Source: an uncultured Chthonomonas sp. (GTDB lineage Bacteria > Armatimonadota > Chthonomonadetes > Chthonomonadales > Chthonomonadaceae). From it: a DNA stretch of 64,000 nucleotides. Within the stretch, counting starts at the first letter, position 1. Every line of letters begins with the position of its first letter. The DNA is taken from contig CAIONQ010000032.1 in assembly GCA_903859705.1 (NCBI GenBank), positions 1 through 64,000 of the forward strand, in the 5' to 3' direction. Shown one piece after another: positions 53,284-63,867 of this stretch. A program made the translations under genes and the position numbers. The notes under the pieces are model-generated. The model saw nothing but the letters and a program-made list of their open reading frames with translations. It was not told where the DNA came from and did not search any database.

Positions 53284-54513
53284 TTGTCAGCAATGACTAC
53301 TGAAGAGATTGACGACGCACTGGATGAATGGCGATCCAGGCTCAAAGTGTCTTCTCAAAACCTGATTGCAATTGACGACCTGTTTACATTTCGCAGGCTT
53401 AACGGGGAAGGCGGAGTATCTGCACCGGTGTTAACCGGGGTTACCGCTCTACAAGTCCCTGCTGCGGTTACCGCTATAGGCAAGCTCTGGGAGTACCAGC
53501 AGATGCTCGGTGCCATCGTGGAAGATGCTGAAGACCTGCGCAAATCGCTGCCATCACTGTTCGGTGCAGATAAAATTCGCCAGCAGATTACCAGTATTTT
53601 GCAGGGGGCATCCATCGATTTTCCCGCCATAGAAACCCCGCTGGCAGAGCGCGGGCTGCTAACCCCCACACAGCAGCAATCTTCTGTTACGCCGCATCAG
53701 CTTCTGGAGATTATGTCGCGAACATTTGAGGTTTCCAGGGCCATCATCCTGCAGGTGGATGAAGCCTGGAGCAAGCTCGATCCACAATTGGCCGCATTGA
53801 ACGAAGAGGCCGATCGGCTTCAGGCACTTGCGGTGGCCGCAGGTGAGGCTGCAATTCCTGAACTGGCACAAATTCGCCAGCGGATTGTAGATATTAACCA
53901 GTGCGTTGCCACCGACCCGCTGGGTGCAGGGATAAATGCGGAACAGAGCCTGCTGCCCCTCATGCAGCAGGTTAAGCAGAGGCTGGAATTATCGGCTGCT
54001 GCCAGGCAAAAGGTTGTTACCAACCTTGCAACCTGCGCCGCACTAATGGCAGACCTGGAAAAGTTGCAGATACGAACATGTGCCGCAGCCACGAGTTTGC
54101 AACAGCACGTTACCACAGAATCAGCCCCTCTTAAAATGCTGGACGATACGGTAGTAACAGAACTTAAAGCATGGCTAAACACGCTAACTACGAGCTTTGA
54201 AGCGGGCAACTGGCGGCCCACAGCGGTGGGCCTGGAGCGATGGCAGGCTTCTGCAGGGGCTGCATTAGATTCAGTTCAGGCTGCTCTAACCCGGGCAAAC
54301 TACATGCTGGAAGCCGCTTCCGAGCTTAAAGGGCGATTGCTTGCCCAGAAGGCTCGCGCAGAAGGGGCCGTGCGCCGGGGCACCGTGATACCGGAGGCAC
54401 TGAATGCCCTTGCGGATGAAGCCGAACAGACTTTGAGGTTAAAGCCAGTGCCGCTGGATAGGGTTCAGCACCTGGTAGAGGATTACGAAAAGAAGCTTGG
54501 AGCCCTGCTATAG
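53284..54513 (+). CDS. helical protein of unknown function, first gene of PknG-like operon
   Basis: 409 residues from a TTG with GGAG seven bases upstream (the ATG three codons later is less well placed). The protein is almost wholly alpha-helical, with heptad-like stretches (LAALNEEADRLQALAVAAGE, LELSAAARQKVVTNLATCAA, LKGRLLAQKARAEGAVRRGT) and only one short linker region at about 120-135 (PTQQQSSVTPHQLL). There is no signal peptide or membrane segment, so it is cytoplasmic and could form coiled coils or helical bundles. It precedes the kinase gene by 67 bases in one operon. A scaffold or kinase-regulator role is inference; no family is recognised. Confidence 0.75.
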   Translation: MSAMTTEEIDDALDEWRSRLKVSSQNLIAIDDLFTFRRLNGEGGVSAPVLTGVTALQVPAAVTAIGKLWEYQQMLGAIVEDAEDLRKSLPSLFGADKIRQQITSILQGASIDFPAIETPLAERGLLTPTQQQSSVTPHQLLEIMSRTFEVSRAIILQVDEAWSKLDPQLAALNEEADRLQALAVAAGEAAIPELAQIRQRIVDINQCVATDPLGAGINAEQSLLPLMQQVKQRLELSAAARQKVVTNLATCAALMADLEKLQIRTCAAATSLQQHVTTESAPLKMLDDTVVTELKAWLNTLTTSFEAGNWRPTAVGLERWQASAGAALDSVQAALTRANYMLEAASELKGRLLAQKARAEGAVRRGTVIPEALNALADEAEQTLRLKPVPLDRVQHLVEDYEKKLGALL

Positions 54514-54580
54514 GCCAGCACCAGGGCCAGTGGATTTTTTGAGGTGGAAAGTACGACTGGAAGGATGATTGGATCGTACC

Positions 54581-56797
54581 ATGGCGGAAACCTGTAAACG
54601 GCCAGGATGCTCTGGCAAACTTGTGGATGGAATATGTGAAGACTGCGGCAGGCCACCGGCCGGGCAGTCTTTGCTTGCTAAATCTGGAACAGCAAACTCC
54701 AAACGTGTTGCCGAGGCCGCTGCCGCCGGCACCTCCGGCCGCAGCGCCAGCGCGTCCTCGGCCAGCTACTCGTCTTCATCTTCCAGCTCTTCCGGCCGAA
54801 CCGGTTCTGGCACACGCGGGTCTGGCCGAAGCGGGCGCGTAAGCACAAGGCGCACTCTCGGCGCAGGCATGATTACGCTGCCAGAGCTGCCATCGATGGA
54901 TCCCATGCTTTCAATCATGGCCGATGCATCGGTTCCAGAACGCAAACGTTTCTGCAGTGCGTGCTCGGCTAAGCTCTCGCATGAAAAAGGCTTCTGCCCC
55001 ATGTGTGGGCATGAGTATTCGTTTTTTCCAACCCTCAAGCCCGGCGATGTGGTGCACGGGCAGTATGAAGTTAAGGGGGCAATTGCCTACGGCGGCCTGG
55101 GCTGGATCTACCTTGGCTGGGACAAAACCCTCTCCCGATGGGTGGTACTGAAGGGCCTGCTCAACTCCAAAGACGAAGCAAGTGCCGCCGCCGCCCTCGC
55201 AGAACGCCAGTTCCTTGCCGCAGTTAAACACCCTAAGATTGTGGGAATTTACAACTTTGTTACAGATGGCACCGAAGGGTACATCGTTATGGAGTACGTC
55301 GGCGGCAAAACACTAAAGGCCATTCGGCAGGAGCGTGGTCCATTGCCCCCCGCCGAAGCAATTGCGTATATCCACGCCATCTTACCGGCATTTACCTATC
55401 TCGAACGCCAGGGGTTGGTGTTCTGCGACTTTAAGCCCGATAACGTGATGCTTGAAGGAGATGATGTAAAGCTGATTGATATGGGCGGCGTTCGCCGGGC
55501 AGATGATACCCAGGGTGATATTTATGGCACGAAGGGCTATTCTGCCCCGGAGGCAACGCAGGACCCCTCCTTCACATCGGACCTGTATACGCTTGCTCGT
55601 ACTCTGGCAATCTTGATGATGGATTTCAAATTTCAGGGTGCCTATGAGTTTACGCTGCCCACGCCCGCAGAGCAGCCGCTGTTTGCACAGCACGAATCGC
55701 TGTACAGGTTTCTGTTGAAGGCCACCCATCAAGATCCCGCCATGCGGTTTCAAACCGCTGAGGAAATGGGCGATCAGTTAATTGGTATTCTGCGCGAAAT
55801 TGTTGCAGAAACCGCACCCACACGCTCGCTTGAGAGCACACTTTTTGGTGGAGATGCCCTTACACATCTGGATAATACGGAGGGCAACATCAACGAGATA
55901 GAAGCCTATCTGCAGCTGCCAACTCTAAAGACAGACCCAACAGACCCTGCCGCAAATGTGATATTAGCTGCATCCGGAGCAACGGATGCTGCCAGACGCG
56001 CCACTTACGAGCAGGCAATGAAACAGTATCCGGATTCCTCGGAAGCACCCCTCAGGCTTGCAGATTGCCTCATCGATGCCGGCAACTATCAGGAAGCCGA
56101 TATTGCTCTGGCACACGCACAGGAGCTTGACTCCTACGATTGGCGGATCCTCTGGTATCGGGGCAAGAGCCTGCTAAAACAACATCAGTGGCGAGAAGCA
56201 GGCGCATGCTTTAACCGCTTGCTGGATGAACTTCCTGGCGAGCTTGCCCCCAGGCTCGCGGTTGCCCTTACTGCAGAAAAACTGGAAGATACGGCAAGAG
56301 CTACTGTCCTTTATGATCTGGTTTCGCGCACGGAACCAGGCTTTGTAGCCGCAGCATTCGGGCTGGCAAGGTGCAAACAGCGCACGGAAGATAGAGCCGG
56401 TATTGTGAACGCCTGCGATAGAATTCCCGCTGCCTCAAGCCTCTACACCGCAGCAAGAATGACGCTGGCACGGGCCCTAATGCAGCAATCCCCTACGCCT
56501 CCCGGCGAGCCCGAGCTTAAACGGGCGTCGGAGGTGATAATGGGCCTCACAATTGAAGGCATTACCCTGCACCGCCTGTCTGCAGATCTGTTGTTAACTG
56601 CTATCTCTCAGATATCGGCAAGCACATTAACGGCCAACCCCGGCACAACATTGCTAAACCAGCCGTTGGAGTTGCGGGCGCTGAAGCTTGGTGCCGAACG
56701 AGAGCTGAGAGCCTGCGCACACCACGCAAAATCGATGGAAGAGCGCATAGCTCTCGTAGATCAGGCAAACAGCATTCGCCCCGTAACCATTATCTAA
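54581..56797 (+). CDS. pknG: PknG-like serine/threonine kinase (zinc ribbon, rubredoxin-like, kinase, TPR)
   Basis: 738 residues from ATG 54581. An N-terminal zinc ribbon (CKRPGCSGKLVDGICEDCG) and a Ser/Gly-rich linker precede a rubredoxin-like CxxC pair (FCSACSAKLSHEKGFCPMCG, about 123-141). The kinase domain has the Gly loop AIAYGGLGWIYLGW, catalytic Lys in WVVLKGLL (about 190), non-RD loop VFCDFKPDNVML (Asp about 282) and DMG in place of DFG. Its spellings follow M. tuberculosis PknG closely (GGLGWIYL, IVMEYVGG). A TPR domain fills the C-terminal half (PGELAPRLAVALTAEK) and ends ANSIRPVTII. In Actinobacteria PknG phosphorylates the FHA protein GarA/OdhI; an FHA gene lies downstream here. 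The name is by homology. Confidence 0.93.
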   Translation: MAETCKRPGCSGKLVDGICEDCGRPPAGQSLLAKSGTANSKRVAEAAAAGTSGRSASASSASYSSSSSSSSGRTGSGTRGSGRSGRVSTRRTLGAGMITLPELPSMDPMLSIMADASVPERKRFCSACSAKLSHEKGFCPMCGHEYSFFPTLKPGDVVHGQYEVKGAIAYGGLGWIYLGWDKTLSRWVVLKGLLNSKDEASAAAALAERQFLAAVKHPKIVGIYNFVTDGTEGYIVMEYVGGKTLKAIRQERGPLPPAEAIAYIHAILPAFTYLERQGLVFCDFKPDNVMLEGDDVKLIDMGGVRRADDTQGDIYGTKGYSAPEATQDPSFTSDLYTLARTLAILMMDFKFQGAYEFTLPTPAEQPLFAQHESLYRFLLKATHQDPAMRFQTAEEMGDQLIGILREIVAETAPTRSLESTLFGGDALTHLDNTEGNINEIEAYLQLPTLKTDPTDPAANVILAASGATDAARRATYEQAMKQYPDSSEAPLRLADCLIDAGNYQEADIALAHAQELDSYDWRILWYRGKSLLKQHQWREAGACFNRLLDELPGELAPRLAVALTAEKLEDTARATVLYDLVSRTEPGFVAAAFGLARCKQRTEDRAGIVNACDRIPAASSLYTAARMTLARALMQQSPTPPGEPELKRASEVIMGLTIEGITLHRLSADLLLTAISQISASTLTANPGTTLLNQPLELRALKLGAERELRACAHHAKSMEERIALVDQANSIRPVTII

Positions 56798-56848
56798 CAC
56801 TGAGCGAGATAGCACCGGCCAGGAAGCCAGGCAAAGGTGGATTTAAGC

Positions 56849-57889
56849 ATGCAATGTGAATCTTGTGGTGAAGCAATTGAGCCAGAACATCGTTTTTGTG
56901 AGAGTTGCGGACACCCACTCATCGAGTCAGCCGTAGCAGTAACGCCTGCTCCGGCACCATTCGCCAAAACAGACAAAGAAAAAGAACCCGAGCCTACTTA
57001 TGCTTCCTCATGTAGATGCGGCGCACAATCGGATGCCCGCGATGCCGACGGATACTGCTCTGTATGCGGACTAAAGTTTGACATTGTAACCGTTGCTTCC
57101 GCCGGCCGAAATCATCGAGAAACGATACTGAACAACACATTTGTGGCTATAACCGATATTGGCAAGCGCCACCACACAAATCAGGATGATACCGGCATCT
57201 CTCTGCTTCCAGAAGGCACGGGAGCAACCATCGCAGTGTGCGATGGCCTCAGCAGCTCCTGCGCCGCCGAAGCCGCTTCTGAGGTTGCCGTAGCCGCCAT
57301 CCTGGATGCCCTTATCAAACATGCTGCCCCGAGCGATGCCAGTGTAATGCGCGCTGCCATTTCCTGTGCGCAGGCAGCAGTTTGTACCATTCCGTCTCCA
57401 CAGGGAGCTATTGGCGAACCGCCAGCAACTACAGTGGTTGCCGCACTCGTAAACGGAAATCACGCCGTTTTAGGCTGGGTTGGGGACAGCCGGGCGTACC
57501 TTGTTGGCCCAAGTGCAGACGACTGCCGATTGCTTACACATGACCACTCCTGGGTGAACACCGTGGTGGATTCAGGAGAGATGACAGAAGCAGACGCGTT
57601 GGCCTCGCCATTTGCACATGCAATAACACAATGCCTTGGCCCACTTACAGAGGAAGATGGTAGCCGCTCTCCCGATCCGGTGCCATCAATACTTGAGCTG
57701 GATATTCCAGCCGGTACCACCTTAATGCTGTGCTCGGATGGTTTCTGGAATTTCCTATCCGATCCAGCTCAGATAGCGCCATTCATGCAAGCCCCGGATT
57801 TTATTACTGCCGCCCGGCAAATGATTGATTACGCAAACGGCAAAGGCGGGCGAGACAATATCACAGTAGCCCTTTATTGCCCCAACTAA
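56849..57889 (+). CDS. PP2C-family protein phosphatase with N-terminal zinc ribbons
   Basis: 346 residues; AGGTGG stands eight bases before the ATG. Two zinc-ribbon modules come first: CESCGEAIEPEHRFCESCG, then CRCGAQSDARDADGYCSVCG. The PPM core follows at about 100-345 with the metal-site motifs TDIGKRHHTNQDD, IAVCDGLSSS, VGWVGDSRAY, LMLCSDGFWNF and GKGGRDNITVALY. These hold two Mg/Mn ions that dephosphorylate Ser/Thr. As the third gene of the operon it is the natural opposing enzyme to the PknG-like kinase and may reset the FHA protein. The zinc ribbons recall those of the kinase and FHA protein. Confidence 0.92.
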   Translation: MQCESCGEAIEPEHRFCESCGHPLIESAVAVTPAPAPFAKTDKEKEPEPTYASSCRCGAQSDARDADGYCSVCGLKFDIVTVASAGRNHRETILNNTFVAITDIGKRHHTNQDDTGISLLPEGTGATIAVCDGLSSSCAAEAASEVAVAAILDALIKHAAPSDASVMRAAISCAQAAVCTIPSPQGAIGEPPATTVVAALVNGNHAVLGWVGDSRAYLVGPSADDCRLLTHDHSWVNTVVDSGEMTEADALASPFAHAITQCLGPLTEEDGSRSPDPVPSILELDIPAGTTLMLCSDGFWNFLSDPAQIAPFMQAPDFITAARQMIDYANGKGGRDNITVALYCPN

Positions 57890-57942: not shown

Positions 57943-59223
57943 ATGCAATTCCGCCTCGAAACATTTGTCAACTCTTATCTGCCCGTTGGCGCAACCCGGG
58001 TGGATGCGGTGGTTTCGGTTACAGCAGAAGGCAGTGCTGCTACACCAGGCAACCCGCTGGCGCAAGCTTCTACTTCGGGAGCGATAATTGGAATCATTGT
58101 GGATGTATCGGGATCCATGCAGGGCGATAGGATGCTCTCTGCAAAGCACGCGGTACGCAAGGCAATAGAGCTGCTTGATGAAAGCACCATGTTCTTCATC
58201 GTAGCATTTTCGGGCCGGGCTACACTCATATCTCCACTGCACCTCGCCACCTCCGAAAACAAGTATCAGGCGGATGCTCAGGTTCAGCGCCTGGAGGCAG
58301 GAGGCGGCACCTGCATGTCGTCGGCATTACTGGCGTCACAACAGGAGTTTAACAAAAGGCCAGAACTGCTCCACTATGCCCTGTTTTTAACGGATGGCAA
58401 GAACTCTGACGATGACCGAGCTGGCCTCGAGAGCGCCCTGGCCGTGTGTGAAGGCGTATTCCAGTGCGATTGTCGCGGAGTAGGAACAGACTGGCAGCCA
58501 CGAGAACTGCAGAAGATTTCGTCCAAACTGCTTGGCTCGGCAATGATCATCGCGCAGCCTGCCGGCATCGAAGCCGACTTCCGGGCGGCGATAAAAGCAG
58601 CCATGGCACGGTCGATTGGCGGGGTGAGGTTGCGGCTATGGACCCCAAAAACAGCAAAGGTGATTGCCTGCAAGCAGGTTAGCCCGGAAATTGTTGTGCT
58701 TACCGATAGATCTACCCAGGTGGATGCACAAACACTTGATTTTCCTACCGGTGCCTGGGGCAATGAGTCCCGAGATTACTACGTGGCATTTGAAATAGCA
58801 TCGGGAGACATAGCCGATGAGGTGCTCGCCTGCCGCCCGAGCATTGTTTACAGCGAAAACGGGCAGGATGTAAAGAGCCCTGCACCGCCAATTGTGGCAA
58901 CGTGGACCGATGATGAGGCACTTTCTACCCGCATCAACGACCATGTTGCGCACTACACTGGCCAGGAGGAGCTTGCGCAATCCATACAACAGGGCCTGGA
59001 GGCGCGCGATAGAGGTGATATCGATGCCGCCACACATATGCTTGGAAAAGCCGCGAAGCTGGCGGCCGAATCTGGCAATGAAGACACGTTCCGAAAGCTG
59101 GCAAAAGTGGTGGATGTGGTGGATGCCGCCCAGGGGACCGTACGCCTGAAAGCCCATGTTGATAAAGCGGATGAAATGGATCTGGATCTGTCTTCAACCC
59201 GTACTTCCCGAGCGCATCGATAA
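57943..59223 (+). CDS. von Willebrand factor A domain protein in the kinase operon
   Basis: 426 residues; GGAGG lies just ahead of the ATG. The VWA domain spans about 45-235, with an intact MIDAS beginning (IGIIVDVSGSMQGDRM), the middle metal residue region GGGTCMSSALLASQQEFN and ALFLTDGKNSDDDRAG. The C-terminal half has beta-rich then helical segments (TGQEELAQSIQQGLEARDRG) and resembles the tail of tellurium-resistance or YfbK-type VWA proteins. There is no signal peptide or anchor, so it is cytoplasmic. It sits between phosphatase and FHA genes, so it may bind phosphorylated partners or act as an adapter; that role is inference. Confidence 0.88.
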   Translation: MQFRLETFVNSYLPVGATRVDAVVSVTAEGSAATPGNPLAQASTSGAIIGIIVDVSGSMQGDRMLSAKHAVRKAIELLDESTMFFIVAFSGRATLISPLHLATSENKYQADAQVQRLEAGGGTCMSSALLASQQEFNKRPELLHYALFLTDGKNSDDDRAGLESALAVCEGVFQCDCRGVGTDWQPRELQKISSKLLGSAMIIAQPAGIEADFRAAIKAAMARSIGGVRLRLWTPKTAKVIACKQVSPEIVVLTDRSTQVDAQTLDFPTGAWGNESRDYYVAFEIASGDIADEVLACRPSIVYSENGQDVKSPAPPIVATWTDDEALSTRINDHVAHYTGQEELAQSIQQGLEARDRGDIDAATHMLGKAAKLAAESGNEDTFRKLAKVVDVVDAAQGTVRLKAHVDKADEMDLDLSSTRTSRAHR

Positions 59224-59256: not shown

Positions 59257-59997
59257 ATGGCCATGACCTACACCTGCCCCAAAAATGCGGCGCATCAAAG
59301 TGATGATCCCGAATACTGCTCTGTATGCGGTGCAAAGATGGCTGGTGCGCCATCCAGCATAACGGCACCATCAACGCCTGCCCAGAGCCCAACTCCTCCC
59401 GAAGCAGTAATCGGCACATCAACGGGGCAAACATGCCCGGATTGCGGTACGCCACGCCACCCTGGAGCCCGGTTTTGCGAGATATGCCGTTATAACTACG
59501 ACACAGGCACTGCAGGTGGAGTTGCCGCAGTAACCAGCGTTGCACCGGTTCCGGCCGCTGCACCAGCGGCTCCAGCTCCGGTAGTGGCGGCTGTTCAGCC
59601 AGCCTCTCCGGTAGCAGAGAGCGTAACCGCCGCCCGTTGGGAAGCGGTGATATCGGTAGATGCCTCGCTGTACGTCGATCCAGATCCGGCAGTGCCCTGC
59701 CCCACTTCAGACCCGGACCGCGTGTTTCCGCTGGATCTGGCGGAGAGCCTGATTGGCCGCAGAAGCGATCGCCTGGATATTCACCCGGAGATCCCACTTA
59801 CAGACCCCGGGATATCACACAGGCACGCAAAGTTATACAGGCAAACAGATGGATCACTCTTGATACTGGATGTTGGTTCTACTAACGGCACGCAGGTAAA
59901 TGGCACAGAACTTACCCCCGGAGTAAAGAAGGCTCTGCAGAGCGGCGATGAGATTACCATTGGCTGCTGGACGCGCGTAAAGATTATTCTGCTCTAA
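59257..59997 (+). CDS. FHA domain protein with two zinc ribbons (possible GarA/OdhI counterpart)
   Basis: 246 residues. The N-terminus has two zinc-ribbon modules (CPKNAAHQSDDPEYCSVCG; CPDCGTPRHPGARFCEICR), then a Pro/Ala/Val linker of about 45 residues, then an FHA domain at about 165-245. Key FHA residues are present: LIGRRSDRLDIHPEIPLTDP, the conserved ISHRHAKLYR and LDVGSTNGTQVNG. FHA domains bind phosphothreonine. In Actinobacteria PknG phosphorylates GarA/OdhI, a small FHA protein that then releases 2-oxoglutarate dehydrogenase; here the FHA gene is in the kinase operon. The N-terminal ETTS phosphorylation motif of GarA is not visible, so the analogy rests on domain and context only. 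Confidence 0.9.
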   Translation: MAMTYTCPKNAAHQSDDPEYCSVCGAKMAGAPSSITAPSTPAQSPTPPEAVIGTSTGQTCPDCGTPRHPGARFCEICRYNYDTGTAGGVAAVTSVAPVPAAAPAAPAPVVAAVQPASPVAESVTAARWEAVISVDASLYVDPDPAVPCPTSDPDRVFPLDLAESLIGRRSDRLDIHPEIPLTDPGISHRHAKLYRQTDGSLLILDVGSTNGTQVNGTELTPGVKKALQSGDEITIGCWTRVKIILL

Positions 59998-60040: not shown

Positions 60041-61420
60041 ATGATTGTTGCACAACCCGGTACAACCACGTCTCGCCCAAAGCTCAGCACGGCCACAATT
60101 GCAACCACCCCGGGGCAAATACAGGTGTTCGCAATTGTCATCACCCTTGCATCAGCCATGCTGTGGGCCGTGGCACAAAGCGGCATCGCATCAATGGGTC
60201 ATTCTATCCAGACAATCGGAAAAGACACAGTCCCCAGCATTGTTGCTGCCGAAAAAATACGCGCCAGCCTGGCAGATATGGATGCCAACGCGGCAAACTG
60301 CTTCTTTAGCCAGGGCACGCGTGAAGCGCGTGCCGCATATGAAACAGATCGGCACTCCGCAGCAGATAGCCTTGTATCCGCAGCAAACAACATCACCTAT
60401 GGCAAAGAAGAACGCGTGCCGATCCTTACTATGGTTGATGGTTTGCAGGGGTATGTAGGGCTGGTTGAAACCGCCCGGTCGAAAGGTTTCCCTCTGGGTA
60501 TGGATGCGCTCAGGCAATCCTCAGAGCAGATGCACACACAACTGCTTCCCGCTGCCGAGGCACTTGACAAAGCGAACTTCTCTCACCTGGATGAGATATA
60601 TAAAACCAGCAAAGAAGCCATTCCCGCGGCTAAACTACGCCTGTGGGTGGTTGGACTCTTAGTATTGTTTGCGCTCATCGGTTTGCAGTTTTACATTGCG
60701 GTACGAATGAAGCGCCTCATAACCATTCCTGTAACGGCAGCAGCCGTAGTGCTTATTGGCTGGCTACTGATGATGGGTAATGCCATAGGGGCGGTGGAGA
60801 GCGATCTAAAGACCGCGAAAGAAGATGCATTCGACTCAGTGCATGCACTCTGGAAAACCCGCGCGGTTGCGTATGATGCCAATGCCGATGAAAGCCTCTA
60901 TCTTCTGGAACGCGGCAGTGTGCGTACACCCGAATCTGGTGCCACACTGGAACAGGCCTTCAAACAAAACGTATCCCAGATAATTGGCCCAACAGAACCA
61001 GAGAAGATACTGCAGCAAGTTGGCACCGGCAAACCTAACCTTACTGGTTTTCTCGGCGAGGAAATGAGAAACATCACTTTTGACGGCGAAAAAGAAGCTG
61101 CGGTAGAGGTTGTAAAGACCTATGCAGCCTATCTGAGCGTAGACGAGAAGATACGGCAATTAGAAACAACAGGCAACCACCAGCAAGCCGTAGAACTGTG
61201 TACAGGCAGCAAAGTAGGAGAATCCAACTGGTGCTTCAATCAATTCGACAAAGCGCTTGGCAAAGTTCTGGATATCAACCAGAAAGCATTTGATAGTTCC
61301 ATCGAAAAAAGCTTCGGAGACATCGCGGGATTAACCATAGCCGCCCCCATCGTATCGGCAATCATCATCGCACTGGTCTGGATAGGCATACTGCCAAGGC
61401 TGAGAGAGTACAGGGCATAA
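60041..61420 (+). CDS. four-helix membrane sensor, GlnX-like
   Basis: 459 residues with four hydrophobic helices at about 28-46 (VFAIVITLASAMLWAVAQ), 200-222 (LWVVGLLVLFALIGLQFYI), 228-247 (TIPVTAAAVVLIGWLLMMG) and 430-450 (LTIAAPIVSAIIIALVWIG). Two long extracytoplasmic helical segments lie between helices 1-2 and 3-4. Actinobacterial GlnX has the same four-helix, two-sensor-loop layout and sits beside pknG with glnH. The second loop contains YDANADESLYLLERGSV. It is the last gene of the operon, 43 bases after the FHA gene. In Actinobacteria the binding protein GlnH signals via GlnX to PknG; no GlnH gene is seen here. Assigned by layout and context. Confidence 0.78.
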   Translation: MIVAQPGTTTSRPKLSTATIATTPGQIQVFAIVITLASAMLWAVAQSGIASMGHSIQTIGKDTVPSIVAAEKIRASLADMDANAANCFFSQGTREARAAYETDRHSAADSLVSAANNITYGKEERVPILTMVDGLQGYVGLVETARSKGFPLGMDALRQSSEQMHTQLLPAAEALDKANFSHLDEIYKTSKEAIPAAKLRLWVVGLLVLFALIGLQFYIAVRMKRLITIPVTAAAVVLIGWLLMMGNAIGAVESDLKTAKEDAFDSVHALWKTRAVAYDANADESLYLLERGSVRTPESGATLEQAFKQNVSQIIGPTEPEKILQQVGTGKPNLTGFLGEEMRNITFDGEKEAAVEVVKTYAAYLSVDEKIRQLETTGNHQQAVELCTGSKVGESNWCFNQFDKALGKVLDINQKAFDSSIEKSFGDIAGLTIAAPIVSAIIIALVWIGILPRLREYRA

Positions 61421-61850: not shown

Positions 61851-61958
61851 TATGAGAGGCCCAAAGGTTACGAGTTAATAACACTTATCTACGCTAAATA
61901 TCGCATTACAGACCGGTGATGACGGTCAGGAGGCGGTTACCCATCCTCCTTCCGTCCC

Positions 61959-61991
61959 GAACCGTACGTGCGGGTTTCCCGCATACGGCTC
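61959..61991 (-). ncRNA. group II intron domain V
   Basis: The minus strand reads GAGCCGTATGCGGGAAACCC followed by GCACGTACGGTTC, the highly conserved catalytic domain V hairpin with GAAA-type loop and a bulge. It lies eight bases after the maturase stop codon and is the core of the ribozyme. Confidence 0.93.
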
Positions 61992-61999
61992 TCCGCCAT

Positions 62000-63427
62000 T
62001 TATTCCTTCCGGAAGGGAGCCCCGAGATTGTGTTGCCTATAGATGCGTTGCAGTTCACCCGGCCATATTAAGCCCAGGTTGGCAAGCATTTCATTGGTGA
62101 TGGTGCTATTCCACCATCCACTTCCTACTCTGCCCACAATGGATGATCGTACGCGGCCTCGAAGGTATTTATCAAGGTGTTTGAACGGTTCCTGAAAGGG
62201 CACATCTATGTGCTTGAAATACCAGTGCCAACCACGCATAAAGTCGTTTAGCTTTCGTATTATCTCCGTCACCCTCTGATTTCTCTTCAAGCGGGCAAAG
62301 GTAACATGGCGTCGCTTCACGGCCCTCTGCGTGATCAAGCGAGGAGTACGTTTTCGGACGGCGTCGCGAAATCGAGCGACCGACTTGGAACGAACCATCT
62401 TGCATTGAACACCGGTCTTCTCATACCGAAAGTAGCGGAAACCCAGAAATTCGAAGCCCGTGCTTACCGAAACAACGCGGGTCTTCTCTGGGTGCAGCAT
62501 CAGCCCTAACTGCCCCTCCAGTATCTCTCTGGACGCCAGCAAGGCGGAATGTGCTTCGTCTTCACTTTTGGTAAAGATGACAAAGTCGTCGGCGTAGCGT
62601 ACCAGACCAAATCCGGCCATTGTGATCGCCTTATCAAAGGCGTGAAGGTAGATATTGGCTAACAGAGGAGAAATAGGTCCTCCTTGTGGTGTGCCAAGCT
62701 CGGTAGGCTCTGTTCTGGATATGTCAGGAAGCTGTACGCCTGCTTTGAGAATGTATCGTATCAGGCGCAATATGCTTCCATCCGCAACTTCCTCGTTAAT
62801 GGCGCTCAGGAGTTTCTCGTGATCGACAGTATCGAAGAAGGATGCGATGTCAGCATCAACTACCCAGCTATACCCATGTCGTATCGCCTTATCCACAACC
62901 TGTAGGGCGGTGGAACATCCACGCTCCGGCCGAAAGCCGTGGCTACGGACGCTGAATATTCCCTCGAAGATCGGTTCGAGTATCTGACGTAGTGCCTGCT
63001 GCACGATCCGATCTCTAATAGTGGGAATGCCCAGAGGGCGCGTACCTCCTGCGCCTTTTGGTATGAACACCCGTCGGACAGGTACTGGCCGATAGGTCTT
63101 CTGTCGCAGATCAAGGCTAAGCTCACGAAGCCGATCCTCAGCATTCTTGCCGAACTGCTGGACAGTTATTCTGTCTATGCCCGGCGCGCCGTCGTTTTCT
63201 GCTACCGTTTGCCATGCCTTGGTGAGGTTGGAAAGAGCGTACACCTTGTAATACAACGAATGCCACTTGAGCTTTCGTACTGGTTTGCTCCTGGGTTGGG
63301 GGGCCGTCTGACTCTCAGCAGACCCGTTATATTGGGTTCCCTGCGCTTCGTCTTTCTCGTCTTCCATAGGAAGAGAGAACGTAAACGACAGTTGGCCTAC
63401 TCCGATCTTTGACTGCCGATTGCTCAC
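62000..63427 (-). CDS. ltrA: group II intron reverse transcriptase/maturase
   Basis: 475 residues from a GTG start, chosen because GGAGGG lies four bases upstream; a frame with no such site extends further. The reverse-transcriptase blocks are in order: NDGAPGIDRITVQQFG, RPLGIPTIRDRIVQQALR, HGFRPERGCSTALQ, ADIASFFDTVDHEKLL, LGTPQGGPISPLLANIYLHA and YADD at about residues 278-281. The X/maturase domain follows (FLGFRYFRYEKTGVQ, WHWYFKHIDVPFQEP). No HNH endonuclease zinc finger is seen at the C-terminus, so it belongs to an endonuclease-free class. It splices its own intron RNA and copies it at the target by target-primed reverse transcription. Confidence 0.93.
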   Translation of the reverse strand: MSNRQSKIGVGQLSFTFSLPMEDEKDEAQGTQYNGSAESQTAPQPRSKPVRKLKWHSLYYKVYALSNLTKAWQTVAENDGAPGIDRITVQQFGKNAEDRLRELSLDLRQKTYRPVPVRRVFIPKGAGGTRPLGIPTIRDRIVQQALRQILEPIFEGIFSVRSHGFRPERGCSTALQVVDKAIRHGYSWVVDADIASFFDTVDHEKLLSAINEEVADGSILRLIRYILKAGVQLPDISRTEPTELGTPQGGPISPLLANIYLHAFDKAITMAGFGLVRYADDFVIFTKSEDEAHSALLASREILEGQLGLMLHPEKTRVVSVSTGFEFLGFRYFRYEKTGVQCKMVRSKSVARFRDAVRKRTPRLITQRAVKRRHVTFARLKRNQRVTEIIRKLNDFMRGWHWYFKHIDVPFQEPFKHLDKYLRGRVRSSIVGRVGSGWWNSTITNEMLANLGLIWPGELQRIYRQHNLGAPFRKE

Positions 63428-63867
63428 CGGTCCCTCCAAACACCTGTTCTGACTGCGGTCCCTTTGCTTTTCCCTGCTTTCACAGGGTGTCAACGCTACT
63501 ATGAACCGCTCTGACTCCTCGCAGCCCCACTCCCATGGCATTTCAGCTTCAGAAAGCAGTTCCGGAGAGCCTTTCGGGACTCGCCGGAGCATACGAGGTC
63601 TCCCTCGGTCACGCACTTCTCTGTTCCCATCATCGCGACGCCAACCACGCTATGAGTTTCCTGTGCTGGGCTTCGCCTTCCCTAGCCGGCTCGCCCACTC
63701 ATCTCGCCGAATCGCGTTCACTTGAGTTTCGCGCTAATGTTTGGCTCCGACCCTTCACCGTTTCCCTCGCGGTAGCGGCTGTCATTGCCTACTGGGGGTG
63801 ATACTCTTACACAGGATCCCCCAAGCGAGATTTTAACTCGCTAGAGAAGTGCGCTGCGAGGCGCACT

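Follow-up and report, generated by a model that had tools for sequence, protein, structure and literature searches.

Introduction

The membrane protein GlnX and the binding protein GlnH control the kinase PknG in Corynebacterium glutamicum and in mycobacteria (PMC9769921, PMC6069109). Few Ser/Thr kinase systems of bacteria have an external input that is known; GlnX-PknG is one of them, and GlnH is believed to be required for its input. In C. glutamicum GlnX the two extracytoplasmic bundles are reported to superimpose well, an acidic finger of helix H4' has been assigned as the site that contacts GlnH, and Sundermeyer et al. raised the idea that the protein might bind ligands itself (PMC9769921). 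PknG homologues have been noted in Calothrix and Ktedonobacter (PMC8546545). We found no paper on partnerless GlnX in the open-access literature, and the literature found, which does mention PknG (Calothrix), makes no mention of a sensor of the cyanobacterial PknG.

Here we describe a GlnX-family protein encoded at positions 60041..61420 of a 64,000-nucleotide stretch of DNA (the window) from an uncultured Chthonomonas sp. of the phylum Armatimonadota. Like the GlnX of the GlnH-GlnX-PknG-OdhI/GarA systems of Corynebacterium and Mycobacterium it belongs to the GlnX family, has four TM helices and two extracytoplasmic helical domains, and is encoded in an operon with a PknG containing kinase and TPR domains and with an FHA protein as candidate substrate. 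It differs from them in that GlnH is absent from the operon, from the genus and, with few exceptions, from the clade to which the protein belongs. Comparison of sequences and of predicted structures leads us to propose, with a probability of roughly 0.55, that this GlnX is the transmembrane relay of a clade that works without a binding protein (SBP), a small solute being bound directly by the outer four-helix bundles.

Results and discussion

The operon consists of six genes on the plus strand, separated by gaps of 33-55 bases, of which glnX is the last. The first gene (53284..54513) encodes a 409-aa helical protein without a family match, for which the AlphaFold2 (AF2) model is confident (pLDDT 89.6), yet no fold match was found in the PDB; this protein is a conserved neighbour of PknG, kept beside it from cyanobacteria to actinobacteria. 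It is followed by PknG itself (54569..56797), with rubredoxin-like, kinase and TPR domains (PF16919; PF00069, 107 bits; PknG TPR PF16918, 205 bits; 2pzi, E=4e-127), a PP2C-type phosphatase with a zinc ribbon (56837..57889, PF13672), a VWA-domain protein (57943..59223, VWA PF13519 and VWA_3_C PF18571) and an FHA-domain protein with a zinc ribbon (59257..59997, PF00498), a candidate substrate or effector of PknG. In comparison with the described systems the operon thus adds the PP2C, VWA and 409-aa proteins, and its FHA protein is not OdhI, scoring 34 bits against the OdhI equivalog where the cut-off is 200.

The glnX reading frame opens with an ATG 43 bases past the FHA gene and encodes 459 residues, in which hydropathy analysis gives exactly four peaks: TM1 (residues 27-45, 60119..60175), TM2 (203-221) and TM3 (226-244), which with the short cytoplasmic linker between them occupy 60647..60772, and TM4 (433-451, 61337..61393). 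The cytoplasmic stretches are positively charged and both large extracytoplasmic loops are acidic. An AF2 model built from an alignment of 36 homologues (pLDDT 93.3, pTM 0.88) places TM1 in a long helix (23-89) and folds the two loops into extracytoplasmic helical bundles, domain 1 (residues ~53-199, 60197..60637) and domain 2 (~253-425, 60797..61315), with short cytoplasmic ends, the C-terminal one carrying the sequence RLREY (453-457, 61397..61411). Hydropathy and structure prediction therefore agree with the GlnX layout of four helices and two extracytoplasmic helical segments given in a preliminary description of this DNA, and the prediction of the loops revealed no differing topology. NCBIfam NF058618 ('GlnX family signal transduction membrane protein') matches at 320.1 bits, above its cut-off of 250, and matches all 36 aligned homologues at E<=0.01, covering paired and partnerless GlnX alike, so that the family name is silent on this difference; the equivalog for kinase-G-activating GlnX, NF041460, scores 112.4 bits, below its cut-off of 780. 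In the model, helix H4' (395-458) runs unbroken and lacks the acidic finger at which GlnH is proposed to make contact in C. glutamicum, and domain 2 has an extra cap (~297-349) that is not a feature of the described systems and that ends in an NITF.GE loop, here NITFDGE (344-350, 61070..61090).

The preliminary description had found no glutamine-binding-protein-like gene in the operon and had suggested, as one of three options between which it made no choice, that the binding protein is encoded elsewhere. The operon indeed contains no SBP gene: a Pfam search detected no SBP domain in the other five proteins, and their N-termini do not have the look of signal peptides by eye, so there is no evident extracytoplasmic partner among them. 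The contig stops 2.9 kb past glnX, and a group II intron with a reverse transcriptase/maturase lies within that stretch (61919-63776, minus strand, ~0.5 kb past glnX), so the absence of glnH from this contig is weak evidence if taken by itself. A search of the window genome (6.24 Mb, 95.7% complete) for a glnH-like gene returned a single SBP_bac_3 protein, on another contig, a fusion with an ABC permease that is encoded beside an ABC ATPase gene. No second glnX accompanied by glnH was found in this genome; indeed no second glnX was found at all, the next matches being weak and to a 623-aa sensor kinase. A second genome of the same genus (G155, 96% complete) retains the cluster, split over two contigs, with a convergent TolC-like gene next downstream of glnX. 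No SBP is encoded in the 9 kb downstream of this glnX and no SBP_bac_3 gene anywhere in G155, which makes a GlnH-type partner elsewhere very unlikely and, since the cluster is kept there, indicates that such a partner is dispensable. G155 also rules out that glnH was lost via the downstream intron, as it has no glnH although its downstream region is uninterrupted, and it makes the permease-fused protein an unlikely partner, as it has no such protein. Of the suggestion that the binding protein lies elsewhere, what stands is the part concerning SBPs of another class, since both genus genomes hold one strong Peripla_BP_6 and six SBP_bac_8 proteins each.

GlnX is rare in the phylum of the window, with three clear cases among the 251 genomes searched. 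PknG_TPR scored above threshold in 4 of 291 genomes, two of them with partial, weak TPR matches, and 5 of the 339 genomes in the cyanobacterial phylum sample gave a match. A scan of named genomes with a PknG alignment yielded 80 loci, which were annotated by six-frame profile searches, GC-rich loci included. The same SBP-free order of 409-aa protein, PknG, PP2C, VWA, FHA and GlnX recurs in Nostoc, Calothrix, Tolypothrix and other cyanobacteria, in an Acidobacteriaceae MAG and in an Amycolatopsis MAG (L060), and rearranged versions of the cluster, likewise without a binding protein, occur in Burkholderiales and Pseudanabaena. Clusters with GlnX and no neighbouring SBP are cyanobacterial, armatimonadotal, burkholderial and probably acidobacterial; in two loci (L034 and L047) the sequence stops less than ~200 bases past glnX, where a downstream SBP would be unseen. 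In 37 loci glnX has an SBP_bac_3 gene as its neighbour; almost all of these loci are actinobacterial, and actinobacterial GlnX is hardly ever without an adjacent GlnH. TelA-family genes (toxic anion resistance) precede the cluster in Burkholderiales and in an actinobacterial MAG (L046:3761-4978, L050:3696-4916, L107:3328-4557), and one genome of the cyanobacterial phylum (G337) carries two paralogous VWA-FHA-GlnX-409-aa clusters, L117 and L118, the latter running on into PknG and PP2C.

In the GlnX tree the GlnH-free loci form one clade (23 rows, 22 without GlnH, SH-aLRT 100) spanning Cyanobacteriota, Armatimonadota, Acidobacteriota, Pseudomonadota and the Amycolatopsis MAG. The GlnH gap is real and lineage-wide, extending beyond one genome. 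An Actinomadura GlnX (L097) nests within the clade, beside the partnerless Amycolatopsis protein, and a Dormibacteraeota GlnX (L053) is sister to it; both loci have a window-like gene order and then an SBP_bac_3 lipoprotein gene directly after glnX. The tree, from a quick search, is unrooted and gives no resolution of the direction of change, and L107 and L052 are long branches in it.

The partnerless clade and the GlnH-paired proteins differ most clearly in the conservation of their outer domains. Among partnerless GlnX, loop 2 is the best-conserved region, with a mean pairwise identity between phyla of 41%, compared to 33% for loop 1 and 23-30% for the membrane parts, whereas among the GlnH-paired proteins no region is less conserved (27%, loop 1 41%). 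The partnerless loop 2 has the signature AY.AN.DES.YLLD, NITF.GE, Y...D..IR.LE..G.H and IN...F (in short, AY.AN.DES...NITF.GE...IN). Most GlnH-paired rows have either a gap or nothing recognisable in the place of the NITF.GE cap. When 33 loop-2 sites were picked on the cyanobacterial and armatimonadotal rows and then scored on held-out rows, partnerless rows retained 21-32 of them but GlnH-paired rows 8-15; the membrane and cytoplasmic sites were retained by both groups alike. The G337 paralogues, which stood outside the site selection, keep NVTFQGE and NITFKGE. All 36 aligned GlnX share R225, in the cytoplasmic linker, G449, R453 and E456, and nearly all share N228 and Y457, which would fit a PknG-facing side common to all members of the family.

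In those in-clade rows whose glnX adjoins an SBP gene, the signature of loop 2 is eroded: L053 keeps 22 of the 33 sites, L097 18 and L052 17, compared to 28 in L060, the partnerless sister of L097. These values overlap those of the most divergent partnerless rows (21 and 24; L118 keeps 21 against 22 in L053), so the erosion is no more than suggestive, the SBP-adjacent in-clade cases being few (three), with L052 a long branch whose neighbour is frameshifted. As the partnerless rows are one clade, the conservation contrast mostly represents one phylogenetic event. The pattern nevertheless favours direct binding by the outer bundles, loop 2 being most conserved where GlnH is missing, least where it is paired and eroded where an SBP adjoins. 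Among the options of the preliminary description, that in which ligand binding has moved into the loops is therefore the best supported, by loop-2 conservation and by the predicted four-helix-bundle fold; the word 'moved', however, assumes a direction that an unrooted tree does not give, and binding by the loops may be ancestral.

Binding proteins of other classes take the place beside GlnX in several lineages. A PotD-like SBP_bac_8 protein, a Tat-type lipoprotein by eye, directly adjoins glnX and replaces GlnH in four Acidimicrobiales loci (L059:1306-2445, L061:1472-2959, L077:5802-6992, L081:5392-6564), in a Streptosporangiaceae MAG the gene directly before glnX encodes a PstS-like PBP_like_2 protein (L086:5810-7132), and a Peripla_BP_6 gene, possibly LivJ-like, is found ~0.5 kb downstream of glnX in the cyanobacterial MAG L052 (10380-11867), its N-terminal part frameshifted. 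Such swaps make plausible the remaining option of the preliminary description, a ligand other than glutamate, aspartate or glutamine. Together with the Peripla_BP_6 and SBP_bac_8 proteins of both genus genomes, they also speak for GlnX working via an SBP of a different class (LivJ-like, PotD/sugar-type or PstS-like) whose gene lies away from the cluster and which would dock on domain 2 at its conserved face. We consider this unlikely, as clade members with enough flanking sequence have the cluster without an adjoining SBP gene, the in-clade members that do adjoin one have an eroded rather than a sharper loop-2 signature, and loop 2 is poorly conserved in those GlnX that dock GlnH.

Besides the GlnH-dependent cascades, the nearest known systems are chemoreceptors, whose four-helix-bundle ligand-binding domains (Vc1313/MCP-DRK, Tar, Tsr, MCP2201) the predicted extracytoplasmic fold of GlnX appears to resemble. 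GlnX differs from them in that a single chain with its four TM helices contains two tandem bundles; it also lacks HAMP and MCP output domains and has no significant sequence match to them. Pfam 4HB_MCP_1 (PF12729) scores 17.2 bits, below its cut-off of 27, and profile searches with loop 1 and loop 2 against PDB chain sequences gave chance matches only. A Foldseek search of the GlnX model against the PDB yielded nothing at E<=0.001; the best ligand-bound match was Vc1313 with D-Arg/D-Lys (8bsa; TM-score by target 0.81, probability 1.00, with a non-significant E of 0.057 and the matched bundle unspecified), followed by Tsr and then the aspartate receptor. TTYH channels, the top whole-chain matches, were discarded at TM-scores of ~0.2. 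In Vc1313 the ligand is contacted by Asn43, Asp47 and Thr48 of helix 1, Thr105, Trp107 and Glu111 at the helix 2-3 loop and Asn176 of helix 4 (PMC10390336). The conserved polar positions N281/S285, N344/T346/E350 and N413 of GlnX appear to match these contacts in order and with similar spacing, a correspondence read by eye without coordinates that we offer as a lead. Domain 1 has a related motif of its own, NIT..G..E, and in a comparison of the two domain profiles NITF.GE aligns with NITYG..E (E 0.00086, probability 24%), which hints at an internal duplication.

Conservation of this kind could also reflect protein binding or a buried polar network instead of a small molecule. Four-helix-bundle sensors can function without a small ligand bound, and the high conservation of loop 2 would equally fit a protein interface, as expected if what the outer domain senses were no small solute but a physical state, or if it bound a second protein or a component of the envelope. 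Still, the invariant polar residues R274, Y278, N281 and S285, at 4-3-4 spacing, would lie on one face of H1', as for a bundle interior, and we regard sensing of this kind as quite improbable. That the clade simply lost GlnH and retains GlnX as a constitutive PknG scaffold would account for the missing gene and the invariant cytoplasmic residues, but is highly implausible, because unconstrained outer domains should drift and domain 2 is instead the best conserved across phyla.

Direct sensing thus being most likely, judged from sequence and model, we suggest that the four-helix bundles outside the membrane enclose a polar pocket in which a small solute of the periplasm is bound, probably an amino acid or a metabolite like it. 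The likelier site would be domain 2, where R274/Y278/N281/S285 of H1', the N344-I-T-F-x-G-E350 loop, Y364/D368 of H3' and N413 of H4' could line the pocket, with domain 1 containing the related motif. Binding would shift the continuous TM1-H1 and H4'-TM4 helices, and the cytoplasmic parts, the R225/N228 linker and the terminal RLREY, which do not differ between paired and partnerless proteins, would then work on the TPR domain of the PknG from the same operon. PknG would in turn phosphorylate the co-encoded FHA protein, and perhaps the VWA protein, opposed by the PP2C phosphatase.

Conclusions

A multi-phylum clade that lacks GlnH but shows stronger conservation of the outer domain makes ligand binding by GlnX itself testable; the conserved residues provide a short list for mutation, and other signals are suggested by the binding proteins that have been swapped in. 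Direct binding by the partnerless clade would also mean that in cyanobacteria an amino-acid-type signal is sensed directly upstream of a PknG kinase. More speculatively, and in our view rather doubtfully, GlnX could at root be a self-contained, chemoreceptor-like Ser/Thr-kinase receptor to which SBPs (GlnH, PotD-like, PstS-like, LivJ-like) were recruited several times independently, the built-in pocket decaying each time. If so, GlnX-PknG would be a modular input platform, its ligand changed by swapping or dropping the binding protein.
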